From: Flagellimonas meishanensis
GTDB taxonomy: Bacteria; Bacteroidota; Bacteroidia; Flavobacteriales; Flavobacteriaceae
Assembly (NCBI RefSeq): GCF_019880545.1
Contig: NZ_JAINVW010000003.1
Span: forward strand, 1,364,001-1,428,000
DNA length: 64,000 nt
Direction: 5' to 3'
The position numbers and the translations under genes were made by a program. The notes beneath the pieces were generated by a model. That model was not told the DNA's origin and ran no database searches. It saw only the letters and a list, made by a program, of their open reading frames with translations. Positions 13,975 to 21,556 of this stretch are shown here, in pieces. The first letter of the stretch is position 1; every line of letters begins with the position of its first letter.

Positions 13975-14700
13975 TTATAGGCTCATTTTATCCTTGAATA
14001 TGTAGGATTGCCTCCGTGAGACTTCCACCTCTTCCCCATTTTTCATGGTCAGTTTCAACTTGCCGTTGAACCACGGGACCACATTCTCAATAAAATTTGT
14101 GTTGACAATTTGTTGTCTGTTGGCCCTAAAGAAAGATTCGTCCGGAAGTTTTTCTTCAATTTGATTCAAGGATTTGTAAAGCAAGGGTTTTTTATCCTCA
14201 AAGAACACCCGGGTGTAATTGCCCACTATTTCAAAATGTGAAATGTCCCCAATCCTCACCAACCAGCAAGATTCCCCATCTTTGATGAAAATTTGACTGC
14301 TTCCCAGGAGTTTTTTGCTCTCCTGATTTTTTGATTGGTTGCCTTCCAATTTCGCCCTCACCTTTTCCAAGGCCATGGCAAAACGTTTTTCGTTCACGGG
14401 CTTTAAAAGGTAGTCCAGGGCATTGTACTCAAAAGATTTTATGGCATATTCATCAAAGGCCGTGGTGAATATGGTTATGGGGACTTCATCTAGCATTTCG
14501 AGGAGTTCAAACCCATCTTTCTCAGGCATGTTGATATCCAAAAGCAGCATATCCGGATTCTTATTGGCAATAAGTTCGTATCCTTCATCAACATTTTCTG
14601 CCTCACCCACCAACTCAATGTCATGATACCGCTTTAAAAGCTCTTTGAGCTCATTGCGGGCCAATCTTGAGTCCTCAACAATCACTGTTTTTATTTTCAT
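13975..14700 (-). CDS. LytTR-family response regulator
   Basis: 241 residues. An N-terminal receiver domain (1-125) has the acidic pair at residues 9-10, phospho-acceptor Asp55 in LLLDINMPEKDG and the conserved Lys in LLKPVNEKRF. The C-terminal LytTR DNA-binding domain (about 140-241) includes VGNYTRVFFEDKKPLLYKSLNQIEEKLP and FFRANRQQIVN. LytTR domains bind pairs of short direct repeats about two helical turns apart. Its start overlaps the kinase stop (ATGA). It is the last gene of a four-gene operon whose promoter region carries a matching repeat pair at 16511-16546. Confidence 0.92.
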   Translation of the reverse strand: MKIKTVIVEDSRLARNELKELLKRYHDIELVGEAENVDEGYELIANKNPDMLLLDINMPEKDGFELLEMLDEVPITIFTTAFDEYAIKSFEYNALDYLLKPVNEKRFAMALEKVRAKLEGNQSKNQESKKLLGSSQIFIKDGESCWLVRIGDISHFEIVGNYTRVFFEDKKPLLYKSLNQIEEKLPDESFFRANRQQIVNTNFIENVVPWFNGKLKLTMKNGEEVEVSRRQSYIFKDKMSL

Positions 14701-15758
14701 GACGTCAACGGTATTTTTATCCTGGCCATCACCGTATCCTCTTCTTCCGTAAGGGTAAAGGAGGCCCGTTCGGCGTACAAAAGGCTTAAACGTTGCCTTA
14801 TATTGTTGATGCCCAATTGGGTCGAAGTCTTTGAAACCTTCAGTTTTCCAGTATTTCTTACCTCAATGTACAATTGCCCATCCTGTTGCCCAATGGTAAG
14901 CGCTATTTTTCCTCCCTGCTTAAGATTGGAAATGCCATGCTTTATGGCATTTTCTATCAGTAATTGTATGATCATTGGAGGAATGTTCAATTCCAGACTA
15001 TCTTTTTCCACATTTTTGATGAACTCCAGGCGTACCTCGAACTGTATTTTGGATAGGTCGATGTAATTATCCACCACCTCCAATTCTTCTTTGACCGTTA
15101 TGGAATTGATATTGTTCTTGGTAAGGGAGTATCGCAGGATTTCCGATAGCTTGGTAAGCATCTCCCTGGATTTTTCGACATCTTCGAGCATCAATCCACG
15201 GATATTGTTCAAACTGTTGAACATAAAATGGGGATTGATCTGTCCCTTCAGCGTGTCCAATTGAGCCTGTTTCAGATTGGTGTTGAGTTCCAATCGTTCA
15301 ATCCTATCCTTGTTTAACTTCAAAAGCAACTTGATGACCAAATACGTAATGACCCATGCCCCAATTAAAAAGAGGGCGTTGAGCACCTGTATCCACAAAC
15401 TATCGTAATGTTTGAACAATTGGGTTTCCTCTGGGGTCAGTGTGGGGCCGAATTTGACATAAATATAGCCAAAGGCTACATTAAGCAATCCAAAAAGCAA
15501 AGACCCGGCAAGCACGGATGCAACGACCTTGATCAAGTCCTGGACACCAAAAGAATCAAAAGAAATATTTCGCTTTAAATACCATCGCAGCACAGAAGTG
15601 GAAAAAATGCCAATCCCTGTTCCCACTACCACGGAATACACAACGAATTCTACGCTTACCTTTTTAAGGACAAAAAGGGAAATTAAGTTGATAAAGCCCC
15701 AGCCCACAAGCTGAAGGACCCAAAATGCGGTGTTTTGTTTTTTTCTGGTTAAATGCAT
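14697..15758 (-). CDS. LytS-type sensor histidine kinase (His_kinase PF06580 class)
   Basis: 353 residues. Four hydrophobic segments (about 12-32, 38-58, 76-100, 122-146) anchor it in the inner membrane; no large extracellular sensor domain is seen. A short coiled-coil linker leads to the His box with His177 in QINPHFMFNSLNNIR, then an ATPase part with PPMIIQLLIENAIKHG (N box) and GIGINN-like LGINNIRQRL (G box). It partners the LytTR regulator encoded by the overlapping next gene. The signal is unknown; the two small membrane proteins upstream are candidates for sensing partners or targets. Confidence 0.92.
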   Translation of the reverse strand: MHLTRKKQNTAFWVLQLVGWGFINLISLFVLKKVSVEFVVYSVVVGTGIGIFSTSVLRWYLKRNISFDSFGVQDLIKVVASVLAGSLLFGLLNVAFGYIYVKFGPTLTPEETQLFKHYDSLWIQVLNALFLIGAWVITYLVIKLLLKLNKDRIERLELNTNLKQAQLDTLKGQINPHFMFNSLNNIRGLMLEDVEKSREMLTKLSEILRYSLTKNNINSITVKEELEVVDNYIDLSKIQFEVRLEFIKNVEKDSLELNIPPMIIQLLIENAIKHGISNLKQGGKIALTIGQQDGQLYIEVRNTGKLKVSKTSTQLGINNIRQRLSLLYAERASFTLTEEEDTVMARIKIPLTS

Positions 15759-15802: not shown

Positions 15803-16141
15803 TTACCAGTTGACCAAATGATATAGCGTTCTGCCCACGCCAAGACCCAGTCCAAAACCTATAAAAATTACCGAAAACGTCAGGAATTCTACCTGAAAAC
15901 GAACCACTCTATCCATTTTTTTCGCTGTACCGCCCAAAATAACCCTCTTTGAGGAATCCCGAATTTCGGAAAAACTACCAGTGAGCTGTGTTTTCCCGAT
16001 ATAGCAGACCAGGAAAAGTCCTGCTGCCAAAAAGCATAACAACGGGACCACAATGCCCTCTTGCCCGTTTGAATTGATATAGCCCATCACCGTAAGAATG
16101 GCCGCACTGGCTAACATTACTATTCTATTGATTCCTTTCAT
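15803..16141 (-). CDS. Small hypothetical membrane protein in LytTR operon
   Basis: 112 residues with three likely transmembrane segments (about 7-24, 30-48, 84-106) and a basic cytoplasmic loop between the second and third. No family recognised. It lies 5 bp after the other small membrane-protein gene and 44 bp before the kinase, so it is translated from the same message as the two-component system. Possible roles are signal input or control of kinase activity, by analogy with other small proteins encoded beside LytTR kinases; this is inference. Confidence 0.65.
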   Translation of the reverse strand: MKGINRIVMLASAAILTVMGYINSNGQEGIVVPLLCFLAAGLFLVCYIGKTQLTGSFSEIRDSSKRVILGGTAKKMDRVVRFQVEFLTFSVIFIGFGLGLGVGRTLYHLVNW

Positions 16142-16146
16142 GATCC

Positions 16147-16359
16147 TTATTGTTTTTTTCCAAAAATCCGCTTAAAGAAAGTCCGTTCACAATTGTTCTT
16201 GTCATCCAAGAAGGCAATCCACATAAATGTGAGTCCTGTGTACATGGGAATGAAATAGCTTTTGTGTTCCCAACCGTTCCATTTTCCATAAATCCCGGTA
16301 ATCACACCCACAATGCCCAATATCAGAATAACTTTTTGTGCTGTATTCAATTTTCTCAT
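16147..16359 (-). CDS. Small hypothetical two-helix membrane protein, first gene of LytTR operon
   Basis: 70 residues from the chosen ATG (MRKLNTAQK); an in-frame ATG at 16386 would add nine residues (MGFNLNGFI) before a natural membrane N-terminus, so I prefer the shorter form. Two hydrophobic helices (about 9-28 and 36-52) flank a loop with WNGWEHKSYF; the C-terminus is Lys/Arg-rich and presumably cytoplasmic. No family recognised. It is the promoter-proximal gene of the four-gene operon, downstream of the direct-repeat pair. Confidence 0.6.
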   Translation of the reverse strand: MRKLNTAQKVILILGIVGVITGIYGKWNGWEHKSYFIPMYTGLTFMWIAFLDDKNNCERTFFKRIFGKKQ

Positions 16360-16510
16360 AATAAATCCATTTAAGTTGAAACCCATTGGGTTAAATCAGA
16401 ATGTTCAAGAGTAAAGAGATTATCAATTTTGCCAGAGTTATCATCCTTTTGATTTTTTGAATTAACAAGACGAAAATAGTGTACTATCCTTGCCTTTAAA
16501 AAGGAATTAT

Positions 16511-16546
16511 GGTCAGCGGTAAAATGGCAAAGGTCAGCGGTAAAAT
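16511..16546 (-). promoter_or_regulatory. Probable LytTR operator: two perfect 15-bp direct repeats, 21-bp period
   Basis: GGTCAGCGGTAAAAT occurs at 16511-16525 and again at 16532-16546 with no mismatch, start to start 21 bp (two helical turns). Read on the minus strand the unit is ATTTTACCGCTGACC; its ACCGCTGA core is close to the general LytTR half-site W-M-M-G-T-T-N-R-K. The pair lies about 150 bp upstream of the operon that encodes a LytTR regulator. Downstream on the minus strand a TATTTTCG (16471-16478) is one mismatch from the Bacteroidota -7 box, which puts the repeats just upstream of the -33 region. Confidence 0.6.
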
Positions 16547-16571
16547 CAACAAAGATCCCTGTTCTTAAGCA

Positions 16572-16604
16572 TAAAAAAAGGGAACCAATGTTGGTTCCCT
16601 TTCT
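16572..16604 (-). terminator. Terminator of the S9 peptidase gene
   Basis: GGGAACCAA (16580-16588) and TTGGTTCCC (16591-16599) form a perfect stem, with A/T pairs extending it on both sides. On the minus strand it ends in a run of seven T, directly after the S9 peptidase stop codon. Confidence 0.85.
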
Positions 16605-16620
16605 TACCAGTTGTATCCAA

Positions 16621-18645
16621 TCAGTCCTTCAAGGGCTGGGGTATTTCCTCTTTGTCCAAATGCTTTGCATAAAAGCCCATCATGGCCTTATATAGCTCCA
16701 AGCGGTTTTCTTCCTTGCCAAAACCGTGTCCCTCATCATACTTGACCATATAGGGCACGTCGAATCCTTTGGCCCTGAGTGCACTGACTATCTGGTCGGA
16801 TTCATCAATGTTTACCCTGGGATCGTTTGCACCCTGGACCACGAACAAGGGTTTTTTGATTTTATCCACATTGTATACCGGGGATACTTCCTCCATGATC
16901 GCTTTCTCCTCTGCAACGTCCTCATCATACCAAATTTCTTTGATGATCTTCAAATAGGGTTTCCAATATGGGGGAATGGTCTTCATAAAAGTGAAAAGAT
17001 TGGACACGCCAACGTAATCCACACCACAAGCGTACAGGTCCGGGGTTTTGGTCAAACCTCTCAACACGGCATAGCCGCCATGACTGCCACCATAAATGGC
17101 TGCCTTCTCTGGATCTACCCAACCTTGGTCCACAACATATTGCAATCCATCTTCCACATCGTCCATGGCCTTTCTTCCAATCTGCTTGAATCCGGATTCC
17201 AGGAATTCCCTTCCATAACCGCCAGAAATCCTAAAGTTGACCTGAAGTGTCGCATATCCCCTACTGGCAAATAATTGTGACTCCGGATTAAATCCCCAGG
17301 AATCACGAATACCCTGGGGACCCCCATGTGGATTTACGACCACGGGCACTTTCTGTCCGGCCAGGGCCGCTTTGGGGAGGGTAATGTACCCATGAAGCGT
17401 GATACCATCCCTACTTGTAAAGGTAATGGGTCTCATGTCGGCCATATCCTCCTCCTTAAGATGGGGCATCGTATTGTAAAGCTCGCTCAACTCATCTTTG
17501 GAAACATCGTATGCATAATATATGCCGTATACACGATCACTGCTCACATATACCATATACAGATTTTCGTCGTCGGTCATATCCAGCACCTGATATTGTT
17601 TTCCTGGCAGTTGTTCCTTCATTTTGGCATCCAATGCTTTGTAGGCATCACTTACGGGAACCACAATGCTTTTTTCTCCTTCGTACGAGAAATAATCAAT
17701 CTCATAGTTTCTTGCCCTGGAAAGGCCCATCCCCTGCACATCGTATTGATCATGGGCAAATACCCGATCTATCATTTTGTCCTCCATTAGGTCGTAAAGG
17801 ACCACCTCAGCCTTGTCGCTTTCCAAATTGGAGACTACGTAAGCATCATGGGCATAAGCAGTGGCATAGTTAAAATCTGCAATAAAAAAATTGTCCTTCC
17901 AATTGAGACTCTTGAGCAATCTGTAGTTGCCATTGCCATCTTCATAATAGATGTCCTGTTCCACCCCGTCCCTTATTTTTGTATAGGCTTTTAGATTCCC
18001 ATCCTTGTCAAAATTGTATCCAAAAATGGGGTTGTTGGGATCATCATTGGCGTAAAGTTGCTCCAATTCCCCTGTTTTATGGTTCACCTTGTAGGGTTCA
18101 AACACCTGTGGATTGTTCTTGTTCATCGAAATGATGATGTGCTGCTCGTCATCCCTCAACAGTTCTGTAAATTGTGCCCGCACCCCATCAAATGGCGTTA
18201 GGTCCTTTAGGTTGCTTCCATCTATATCCACGGCGTAGATGTGATAGTTCTCGTTACCACCCTTGTCCATGGAAAAATACAGTCTGCCGTTGTTGAGCCA
18301 TCCGTAGGCCCGCACCAGCTCCTCTTTTTCCTCAATGGCCATTTTCGCTTCCCCTGTGGCTACATCTTTTACATAGATGTGACGTTTGCCATGTTCATCC
18401 GATTCCCGATATGAAATGTACTTACCGTCTGGGGAAAATCTAAAGGTAATCGCCTTTGGATTGGCAAAATAATCCTCAACGGTATACCGATAATCCCCGC
18501 TGTCCAAAGAGGCCAGGGCACTCAGTTCTTCCTCTGAACTGACCAAGTTCGGGTCTCCAGGCAAATCCTGTGCTTGTATGGTCATCCCCAGTAGAAAAAA
18601 TAGGGAAACCCCATAAATCATTTTAATTTTTGGTGTTGTTTTCAT
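16621..18645 (-). CDS. S9 family serine peptidase (prolyl oligopeptidase/acylaminoacyl peptidase type)
   Basis: 674 residues. A signal peptide (about 1-25, ending TIQAQ) is followed by a seven-bladed beta-propeller region (about 50-400) with TolB-like repeats such as FRFSPDGKYISYRESDEHG. The alpha/beta hydrolase domain (about 420-674) has the nucleophile Ser in GGSHGGYA (about 522), Asp in GANDPRVN (about 606) and His in EGHGFG (about 640). It is probably periplasmic and cleaves short peptides. It is monocistronic, with its own terminator downstream. Confidence 0.92.
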   Translation of the reverse strand: MKTTPKIKMIYGVSLFFLLGMTIQAQDLPGDPNLVSSEEELSALASLDSGDYRYTVEDYFANPKAITFRFSPDGKYISYRESDEHGKRHIYVKDVATGEAKMAIEEKEELVRAYGWLNNGRLYFSMDKGGNENYHIYAVDIDGSNLKDLTPFDGVRAQFTELLRDDEQHIIISMNKNNPQVFEPYKVNHKTGELEQLYANDDPNNPIFGYNFDKDGNLKAYTKIRDGVEQDIYYEDGNGNYRLLKSLNWKDNFFIADFNYATAYAHDAYVVSNLESDKAEVVLYDLMEDKMIDRVFAHDQYDVQGMGLSRARNYEIDYFSYEGEKSIVVPVSDAYKALDAKMKEQLPGKQYQVLDMTDDENLYMVYVSSDRVYGIYYAYDVSKDELSELYNTMPHLKEEDMADMRPITFTSRDGITLHGYITLPKAALAGQKVPVVVNPHGGPQGIRDSWGFNPESQLFASRGYATLQVNFRISGGYGREFLESGFKQIGRKAMDDVEDGLQYVVDQGWVDPEKAAIYGGSHGGYAVLRGLTKTPDLYACGVDYVGVSNLFTFMKTIPPYWKPYLKIIKEIWYDEDVAEEKAIMEEVSPVYNVDKIKKPLFVVQGANDPRVNIDESDQIVSALRAKGFDVPYMVKYDEGHGFGKEENRLELYKAMMGFYAKHLDKEEIPQPLKD

Positions 18646-18801
18646 GCTATTTAGTGCTATTTTGATTGTTTGTGATTCCAGACATCTTATTTAAGACGCC
18701 CTTTTTTGACAGATGTTACATCCTAAAATCAAAAATAAGCTGTGAACTTGAGAGCAGGAGTGCTTTTATGACCAATGGCAAATACCGAAAGCGAACGGGG
18801 G

Positions 18802-20449: not shown

Positions 20450-21556
20450 TTACAAAGCTTCAATTACCTTGCTTAACCGTTCTGTGATCTCCTTGATCTC
20501 TCCGATACCATTCACAGAATGGAACTTACCCTGTTTTTCATAATAGGCTTTTAAGGGTGCCGTTTTTTGATTGTATTCATCAAAGCGGTTGCGGATCTTG
20601 CCTTCATCTTGATCGTCGGAACGACCACTGCTCTTGCCACGTTCCAACAATCTGGCAACCAATATATCATCATCGGCTTCCAATGCAATTGTGGCATTCA
20701 CTTTCATGTCCTTGGAGTCCAAAAAATTATCCAATGCTTCCGCTTGGGCTGCGGTCCTTGGAAATCCATCAAAAATGAAGCCCGCCGCATCGGGATTCTT
20801 CTCCACTTCGGCCTTGAGCATGTCTACGGTTACCTCATCGGGCACCAGATCCCCTTTATCAATATATGATTTGGCCAATTTTCCCAAATTAGTCCCATTT
20901 TTTATGTTGTAACGGAAGACATCCCCTGTTGAAATGTGCTTCAGATTGTATTTTTCCTTTAAAACTCCGGCTTGTGTTCCCTTGCCGGCTCCTGGCTTTC
21001 CAAAAAGCACTAGGTTGATCATATCTGCTTGATTTATTTGATATACTTCTCTCAGGTTTCTTCCCAATTCATTGTAATCCAAGCCATACCCCACTATAAA
21101 ATTGTCCGGGATTTCCATGCCAACATAATCGATGGCATATTCCCCATTATAGACCTCGGACTTGTAAAACAGGGTGGCAATCTTAAACTCCTTTACGTTG
21201 GTCTGGGAGAAAAGGTGCACGAGTTGCTTCAGCGTCCTTCCCGTGTCTACTACATCCTCTAGGATTATCACGCTTTTGCCATCAATTTCTTGGGGAATAT
21301 CCAATAAGGTTTCCACGATTCCGGTAGAGGTCAGGCCCTGATATGAGCTCAATCGAACAAACGAAACTTGACATGGATGGGGATATGCCTTCAAAAAATC
21401 GGACACGAACATAAAGGCTCCATTGAGGACGCCCACAAAAATGGGAACCTCATCCTTGTAGTCCCTGGCAATTTCATTGGCCACCTTTTCAACGGCCGCC
21501 AAAATTTGCTCCTCCCTTAAAAAAGGTTTAAAATATTTATCATTGAGTTTGATCAA
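20450..21556 (-). CDS. adk: Hypoxanthine phosphoribosyltransferase-adenylate kinase fusion
   Basis: 368 residues in one frame. Residues 1-175 are a type I phosphoribosyltransferase with the PRPP loop VIILEDVVDTG (96-106) and a base-binding end near YGLDYNELGRNL. Residues 179-368 are adenylate kinase: P-loop GKPGAGKGT (186-194), DGFPRT (263-268) and a short zinc-free LID (GRSDDQ region, about 311-330). The fusion makes IMP/GMP by salvage and also interconverts AMP, ADP and ATP. The start is a TTG at 21556: the codon just before it is TAA and no ATG occurs in frame until residue 49, inside the fold. A -7 box lies 25 bp upstream. Confidence 0.92.
   Translation of the reverse strand: MIKLNDKYFKPFLREEQILAAVEKVANEIARDYKDEVPIFVGVLNGAFMFVSDFLKAYPHPCQVSFVRLSSYQGLTSTGIVETLLDIPQEIDGKSVIILEDVVDTGRTLKQLVHLFSQTNVKEFKIATLFYKSEVYNGEYAIDYVGMEIPDNFIVGYGLDYNELGRNLREVYQINQADMINLVLFGKPGAGKGTQAGVLKEKYNLKHISTGDVFRYNIKNGTNLGKLAKSYIDKGDLVPDEVTVDMLKAEVEKNPDAAGFIFDGFPRTAAQAEALDNFLDSKDMKVNATIALEADDDILVARLLERGKSSGRSDDQDEGKIRNRFDEYNQKTAPLKAYYEKQGKFHSVNGIGEIKEITERLSKVIEAL

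Follow-up and report, generated by a model that had tools for sequence, protein, structure and literature searches.

Direct repeats of LytTR-operator type and a conserved predicted micropeptide in a probably autoregulated histidine-kinase operon of Flagellimonas and related Flavobacteriaceae

Two perfect direct repeats in a 64-kb stretch of the Flagellimonas meishanensis genome, hereafter the window, are very probably the switch by which a sensor-regulator pair controls its own genes, as judged by sequence comparison. The best explanation of our observations as a whole, and one that we hold with good confidence, is an autoregulated histidine-kinase/LytTR system whose operon is headed by a conserved amphipathic micropeptide. 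The predicted operator itself is a LytTR-type site, a kind already known, and a micropeptide heading a LytTR operon across much of the family is, as far as our searches of the open-access literature show, undescribed. To our knowledge, no LytTR operator has been defined in Bacteroidota; our searches of the open-access literature yielded no description of one, nor of the present operator and micropeptide. In the present case a base-level definition is available for the operator, its promoter and a few candidate targets, and it can be transferred to genera such as Maribacter, Cellulophaga, Winogradskyella and Gillisia. Although its ORF is so short that annotation usually passes it over, the micropeptide varies less in its occurrence than do the larger accessory genes beside it, and the role of the kinase and a possible peptide signalling in the phylum thereby become directly testable.

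The operator and the operon comprise the following features, given by window position:

16532-16546, minus strand: distal copy of the repeat (15-mer GGTCAGCGGTAAAAT), containing half-site 1, TTACCGCTG, at 16535-16543
16511-16525, minus strand: proximal copy of the repeat (15-mer GGTCAGCGGTAAAAT); half-site 2, TTACCGCTGACCATAA (16507-16522), reaches 16507
16471-16478, minus strand: -7 box TATTTTCG, 28 nt past the operator end
16391-16444, minus strand: 17-codon microORF MITLAKLIISLLLNILI, an unlisted ORF of which the earlier note made no mention
16147-16359, minus strand: P70, a 70-aa hydrophobic protein with no match in Pfam (E 0.01) or NCBIfam (0.1)
15803-16141, minus strand: P112, a 112-aa hydrophobic protein, found by tblastn (1e-3) in 4/34 genus loci
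14697-15758, minus strand: histidine kinase (His_kinase, PF06580)
13975-14700, minus strand: response regulator, with a receiver (PF00072) and a LytTR DNA-binding domain (PF04397)

The earlier note, made from the letters of the window, had described two identical 15-mers with a 21-bp period, upstream of an operon ending in a LytTR regulator. The repeats are indeed exact and lie where it had placed them, and the regulator is the last gene of the operon, on the minus strand. With words of two letters or fewer excluded, this pair is the sole exact 15-mer repeat of the 64-kb window with starts 15-60 bp apart, and none of 200 first-order Markov simulations of the window contained any such pair. Perfect identity of the copies is confined to the window, being imperfect in 33 aligned relatives, as might be expected of a recent local duplication or a functionless coincidence. 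The geometry of the half-sites, unlike this identity, is conserved: all 34 operators examined in the genus (window included) consist of half-sites TTACCGTTC and TTACCACTnGTCATAA 21 bp apart, and two half-sites at that distance also occur in 13/13 orthologous operons elsewhere, so that the proposed check of conservation in relatives came out in favour of the repeats. Since both half-sites are equally spaced in 34/34 operators, no duplication is needed; this conservation and the simulations contradict duplication or coincidence, to which we accord next to no credence.

These figures derive from a search with the regulator against 59 genomes, of which 36, counting the window's own, belong to its genus. 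An orthologue (at least 77% identity) is present in 34/35 same-genus relatives, the exception being an assembly (G006) in which the operator is present and the regulator was not found. All 34 orthologue loci were taken; one (L064) was left out because its contig stops short of the upstream region, so that the set consists of the window and 33 relatives. The 34 operators align ungapped across 78 columns, in the order half-site 1 (TTACCGTTC), 12 nt, half-site 2 (TTACCACTnGTCATAA), 28 nt and TAnnTT, with 1.2-2.0 bits per position in the half-site cores and 0.09-1.03 bits at the 12 spacer positions. The tail of half-site 2 contains an invariant CATA (34/34). A 39-bp operator model matched 56/60 genus genomes at E <= 1e-5, including 23 of the 26 outside its training set; the three exceptions there are G063 (1.4e-3), G065 (0.065) and G014 (cut contig), and one training genome, G021, gave 6.2e-4.

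The proposal that the geometry is that of a LytTR operator agrees with published spacing (articles are cited throughout from partial texts). LytTR sites are described as 9-bp repeats separated by 12 bp (PMC2766830), or as repeats of 9-11 nt spaced by 11-13 nt (PMC4847170), and the cores here are of 9 bp with a period of 21 in all 34 genus operators. The predicted site also stands just upstream of the target promoter, in 34/34 genus loci and in 74/79 of the more distant set of named loci described below. The half-site ACCGTTCG would fit the family consensus reportedly given by Nikolskaya and Galperin (2002). LytTR sites have also been presented as lacking a common consensus (PMC4847170). As for the suggestion that the 15-mer would serve to find the regulon, only part of it stands: exact matches in the genome are limited to its own two copies, and a profile finds more sites. 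With up to two mismatches, the 15-mer has eight matches in its own genome (the exact pair and six with two mismatches), and a reversed control pattern has five.

The kinase (PF06580) beside a PF00072-PF04397 regulator forms a two-component pair of LytS/LytTR type. LytS-type sensor domains are 5TM-5TMR_LYT and GAF. None was found in the kinase, whose Pfam matches to E 0.01 are PF06580 and PF02518 only, and as these are the sole domains matched we describe it as LytS-like in output and do not class it as LytS. The best NCBIfam match of the regulator is BtsR, at 167.6 bits, under the cut-off of 246; in the PDB it matches mostly receiver-domain chains, one chain (3d6w) spanning the LytTR part.

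The box downstream of the operator agrees with the published flavobacterial sigma-A, which recognises TAnnTTTG at -12 to -5 (PMC9723704). TAnnTT stands 28 nt past the operator in 34/34 genus operators, extended to TAnnTTnG in 31/34, and the -33 element of the operon promoter is poor; flavobacterial promoters lie outside the coverage of the sigma-70 scan. By the flavobacterial sigma-A rule, transcription would start at about 16466. Relative to this predicted start the operator occupies about -77 to -41 and its half-site cores are centred near -73 and -52. About 22 nt of leader would then precede the microORF.

We propose that the LytTR response regulator, whose gene closes the operon, recognises the repeats as its two half-sites. 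In this model the regulator, as a phosphorylated dimer, would contact the pair, which spans about -77 to -41 with two helical turns between the half-sites, and would bring RNA polymerase to the sigma-A promoter with its poor -33 element. It would thereby switch on its own operon and, more weakly, the adjacent S9 peptidase gene. We propose positive autoregulation because the site is in activator position relative to the predicted start; most LytTR regulators bound just upstream of a promoter are activators (PMC11347149). The regulator might instead repress its own operon, since LytTR repressors such as CoxC exist. The CoxC site, however, overlaps the -35 box (PMC11347149), whereas the site here ends about 41 nt upstream of the predicted start; its position is that seen at AgrA-activated promoters, where the promoter-proximal repeats are centred at about -60 (PMC4227749), and the -33 element is poor. 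Repression thus appears quite unlikely, and activation remains our preferred reading.

Beyond the genus, the family was searched through 149 genomes, one per genus. An orthologue of the regulator (at least 67% identity) occurs in the window's own genome and in 13 other genera, and a paralogue of about 47% identity in 8/149, one genome having both. A weight matrix trained on the genus found the operator in 13/13 orthologous operons of other genera (scores 8.8-38.2), followed by the -7 box at offset 28, or 27 in one case (L142). Applied to 13 loci of the paralogue (46-50% identity; six of the same genus, for which upstream sequence was read, and seven others), it found no operator in any, the best score being -2.0. 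These loci (L088-L093, L145-L151) carry a paralogous kinase/LytTR pair, which in the same-genus loci is preceded by a predicted lipoprotein gene, as read by eye.

A wider operator-promoter model was then built on 89 rows picked by score and offset, so that its -7 columns are partly so by construction; its training rows overlap some of the 14 orthologue genera. Its best match reaches E <= 2.4e-5 in 14/14 genera with the orthologue and in 0/135 others, and at this level the site is linked to the LytTR regulator and absent without it. Weaker matches, many of them partial, occur at E 1.1e-4 (G199) to 0.01 in 32/135 genera without the orthologue; as this is more than predicted, the E-values are optimistic and those near 0.01 mean little.

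The operator could nevertheless belong to a different regulator, the LytTR gene merely lying within the regulated operon. As the strong site adjoins the regulator gene, linkage does not separate the two readings and co-occurrence would equally suit another factor of the same operon; moreover, any of the 15 LytTR-domain matches in the genome could bind such a geometry. Against this stand the fit to the LytTR rule (PMC4847170, PMC2766830), the restriction of strong sites to the orthologue genera and the lack of an operator at the paralogue loci, which together make a different regulator very unlikely. We therefore keep to control by the operon's own LytTR protein as the predicted arrangement.

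A second set, the named loci, consists of the best 80 of the matches listed, of which 79 were used, one (L160) being too short. Their genera include Allomuricauda/Flagellimonas, Maribacter, Cellulophaga, Croceivirga, Winogradskyella, Psychroserpens, Gillisia, Kordia, Tenacibaculum and Flavobacterium; since some genomes are common to both, this set and the other loci are not independent. In 74/79 named loci, and in 49 of the 54 outside the genus, the top forward-strand score is higher than any score on the reverse strand (maximum 5.5). TAnnTT occurs at offset 28 in 74/79, the offset not having been required. Of the five loci not above the reverse-strand maximum (L181, L215, L228, L229, L231), L215 (4.8) and L228 (5.5) have borderline scores and the correct -7 offset. 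We observed a CATA-like tail on half-site 1 as well in eight loci of Winogradskyella and Psychroserpens (L202, L205-L209, L211, L227), which suggests a full half-site of about 16 bp whose tail is missing from half-site 1 in the window's genus.

The region upstream of the operon contains three further features:

16574-16605, minus strand: inverted repeat with a T run after it, in the gap separating the operator from the S9 gene
16621-18645, minus strand: gene of the S9 prolyl-oligopeptidase family, in the same orientation as the operon, a possible second target
18729-18798, minus strand: weak operator-promoter match upstream of the S9 gene, with -7 box TATTTTTG at an offset of 28 nt

The inverted repeat would be a terminator; it is absent from the terminator-scan list because its loop is of 2 nt, the scan minimum being 3. 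Elsewhere on the same strand (20450-21556), a 368-aa ORF resembles, by eye, a phosphoribosyltransferase fused to an adenylate kinase.

Among the matches of the wider model in the window's genome, the operon comes first (1.2e-11) and the S9 promoter second (0.0037), the rest being partial matches at 0.115 or above. These were dropped, the weight matrix giving no score above 0.3 in the three regions taken from among them (L245, L247, L248). The S9 site is degenerate, with an ungapped score of 2.5 and half-site 1 shifted by one base. Given background matches to E 0.01 elsewhere, this site is weak on its own, and its case rests mainly on relatives. An S9 homologue (at least 60% identity, operon strand) is found in 26 named loci, six of which have too little upstream sequence. 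The 20 testable relatives comprise 13 with a site scoring above 5.5, two with a weak site at the correct offset (L158, L159) and five with none. In G168, the fetched region showed no S9 gene next to the operon; another site on that contig (L243) lies ahead of an ORF of 768 aa, the start of which is similar to the S9 protein, with an N-terminal extension.

The operator also stands ahead of an alpha/beta hydrolase gene in Kordia, of a GldB-like lipoprotein gene (PF25594) in Tenacibaculum, and of genes for 44-46-aa proteins and ankyrin proteins in Cellulophaga and relatives. We noted the 44-46-aa proteins behind extra operator copies in Cellulophaga (L185, L187, L195, L189, L198) and an uncultured relative (L180), each with one likely membrane helix; they are possibly a second family of small proteins under the same control. 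As the candidate targets include small membrane proteins and probably exported enzymes, they suggest a function in the envelope.

The first gene of the predicted transcript would be the 17-codon microORF, about 22 nt from the start. In 34/34 genus operons, the first ATG past the -7 box opens this microORF or an in-frame extension of it, mostly of 17 aa and in a few cases of 18-20. In all 13 orthologous operons of other genera there is a microORF for a hydrophobic peptide of 17-24 aa, which begins 95-131 nt past the first base of the site; in three of the loci examined (L136, L140, L143) a short unrelated ORF begins slightly ahead of it. In those genus genomes outside the fetched loci that match the start pattern given next, the microORF starts some 94-107 nt from the site, as compared by eye. 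A DNA pattern of the microORF start has exactly one match in 48/60 genus genomes and none in 12, several of which have a variant sequence; the reversed pattern has none.

Codon statistics from 27 distinct genus sequences show coding constraint on the microORF at the amino-acid level: the in-frame pN/pS of 0.32 compares with 0.64 and 3.6 for the two alternative frames, and diversity by codon position is 0.36/0.07/0.53. The motif MI-[AT]-L-[AV]-K is common to many of the micropeptides. All 44 distinct 17-mers of the filtered set have Lys or Arg at position 6, but only 64/72 distinct peptides of all lengths do, two of the exceptions being register shifts from an earlier Met; outside these 72, Lys/Arg is missing in L139 and L144, and Cellulophaga peptides have Glu at this position. 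The helical moment lies on average 1.5 z above shuffles, with only 24/69 peptides beyond the 95th percentile, and 68/69 distinct micropeptides are without Cys. The predicted peptide thus appears hydrophobic and moderately amphipathic, with one central Lys.

Under a strict filter, a microORF lies behind the operator in 59 of the 79 named loci, against a background of 868/31,600 random positions (2.7%). Ten more loci have, by eye, a comparable peptide encoded upstream of the regulator (L176, L177, L178, L180, L181, L185, L187, L195, L198, L229), and one has a comparable micropeptide with a GTG start (L184). Seven of the 79 lack it, in Tenacibaculum (L203, L220, L222), Kordia (L224, L226) and Bizionia-like genomes (L215, L228), and two (L230, L231) are ambiguous. 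Most of the relatives sampled that possess the system have thus retained a predicted membrane-like micropeptide, of 17 aa in the window. Across operons it is steadier than P70 and P112: P70 was detected in 33/34 genus loci versus 1/13 loci of other genera, and the gene following the microORF varies between genera.

The microORF stops 8-35 nt ahead of P70 within the genus, where leader ORFs occur, and it might encode a leader peptide that acts through attenuation or translational coupling, the peptide itself being functionless. The leader of the window, however, folds no better than shuffles (z +1.65) and matches no Rfam family at gathering score, and a terminator scan of 16100-16700 returned no terminator-like site on the operon strand; in the window, neither a structured leader nor a terminator after the ORF was thus seen. 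Constraint acts at the amino-acid level, and the peptide stays while the following gene differs between genera. We consider a mere leader peptide unlikely, and favour a peptide with a role of its own.

What that role would be is more tentative. The micropeptide may reside in or on the cytoplasmic membrane and act there on the membrane kinase of its operon, or on whatever state of the envelope this kinase senses; modulation of the kinase is our preferred role, although we regard it as doubtful. Equally tentative is the broader proposal that the 17-24-aa membrane micropeptides of Flavobacteriaceae are either ligands or feedback modulators of the kinase or secreted modulin-like peptides. A co-regulated S9 peptidase could then remove the peptide, and the system, if this is true, would represent a peptide-based signalling loop in Bacteroidota. 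Shortness and place behind the operator fit a modulin-like peptide, and only 24/69 exceed the 95th percentile of shuffles.

The phenol-soluble modulins, which are short amphipathic peptides without a leader, are under direct control of AgrA. Unlike in the AgrA system, the 17-aa peptide here sits in the regulator's own operon. At P2/P3 of Staphylococcus aureus agr, the operon to which it belongs, AgrA binds as a LytTR dimer to a pair of direct repeats immediately ahead of the promoters (PMC4227749), an arrangement that is predicted here. The present operon differs from agr in its flavobacterial promoter type and in that the four operon proteins searched gave no Pfam or NCBIfam match to an AgrB- or AgrD-like family, that is, to an agr-type processing protease or pheromone precursor. 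In streptococci, SilA/SilB sites share the period of 21, with two 10-bp direct repeats and an 11-bp spacer, and the repeats are required to activate the sil promoters (PMC2766830); SilA/SilB differ in their half-site sequence and in serving peptide-pheromone quorum sensing, no such pheromone gene having been identified in the present operon. PMC10197871 and PMC5395568 between them report LytTR mutations, of unspecified effect, in evolved lines of Flavobacterium johnsoniae and the numbers of LytTR regulators. The YpdA/YpdB and BtsS/BtsR systems of Escherichia coli likewise pair a membrane kinase with a LytTR regulator, and the site of YpdB at its target yhjX is likewise an upstream direct repeat (PMC4847170). 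Those systems respond to pyruvate and have transport-type targets, and their kinases differ from ours, in which no LytS-type sensor domain was found; the apparent targets here are instead the system's own operon, with its micropeptide, and a serine peptidase gene.
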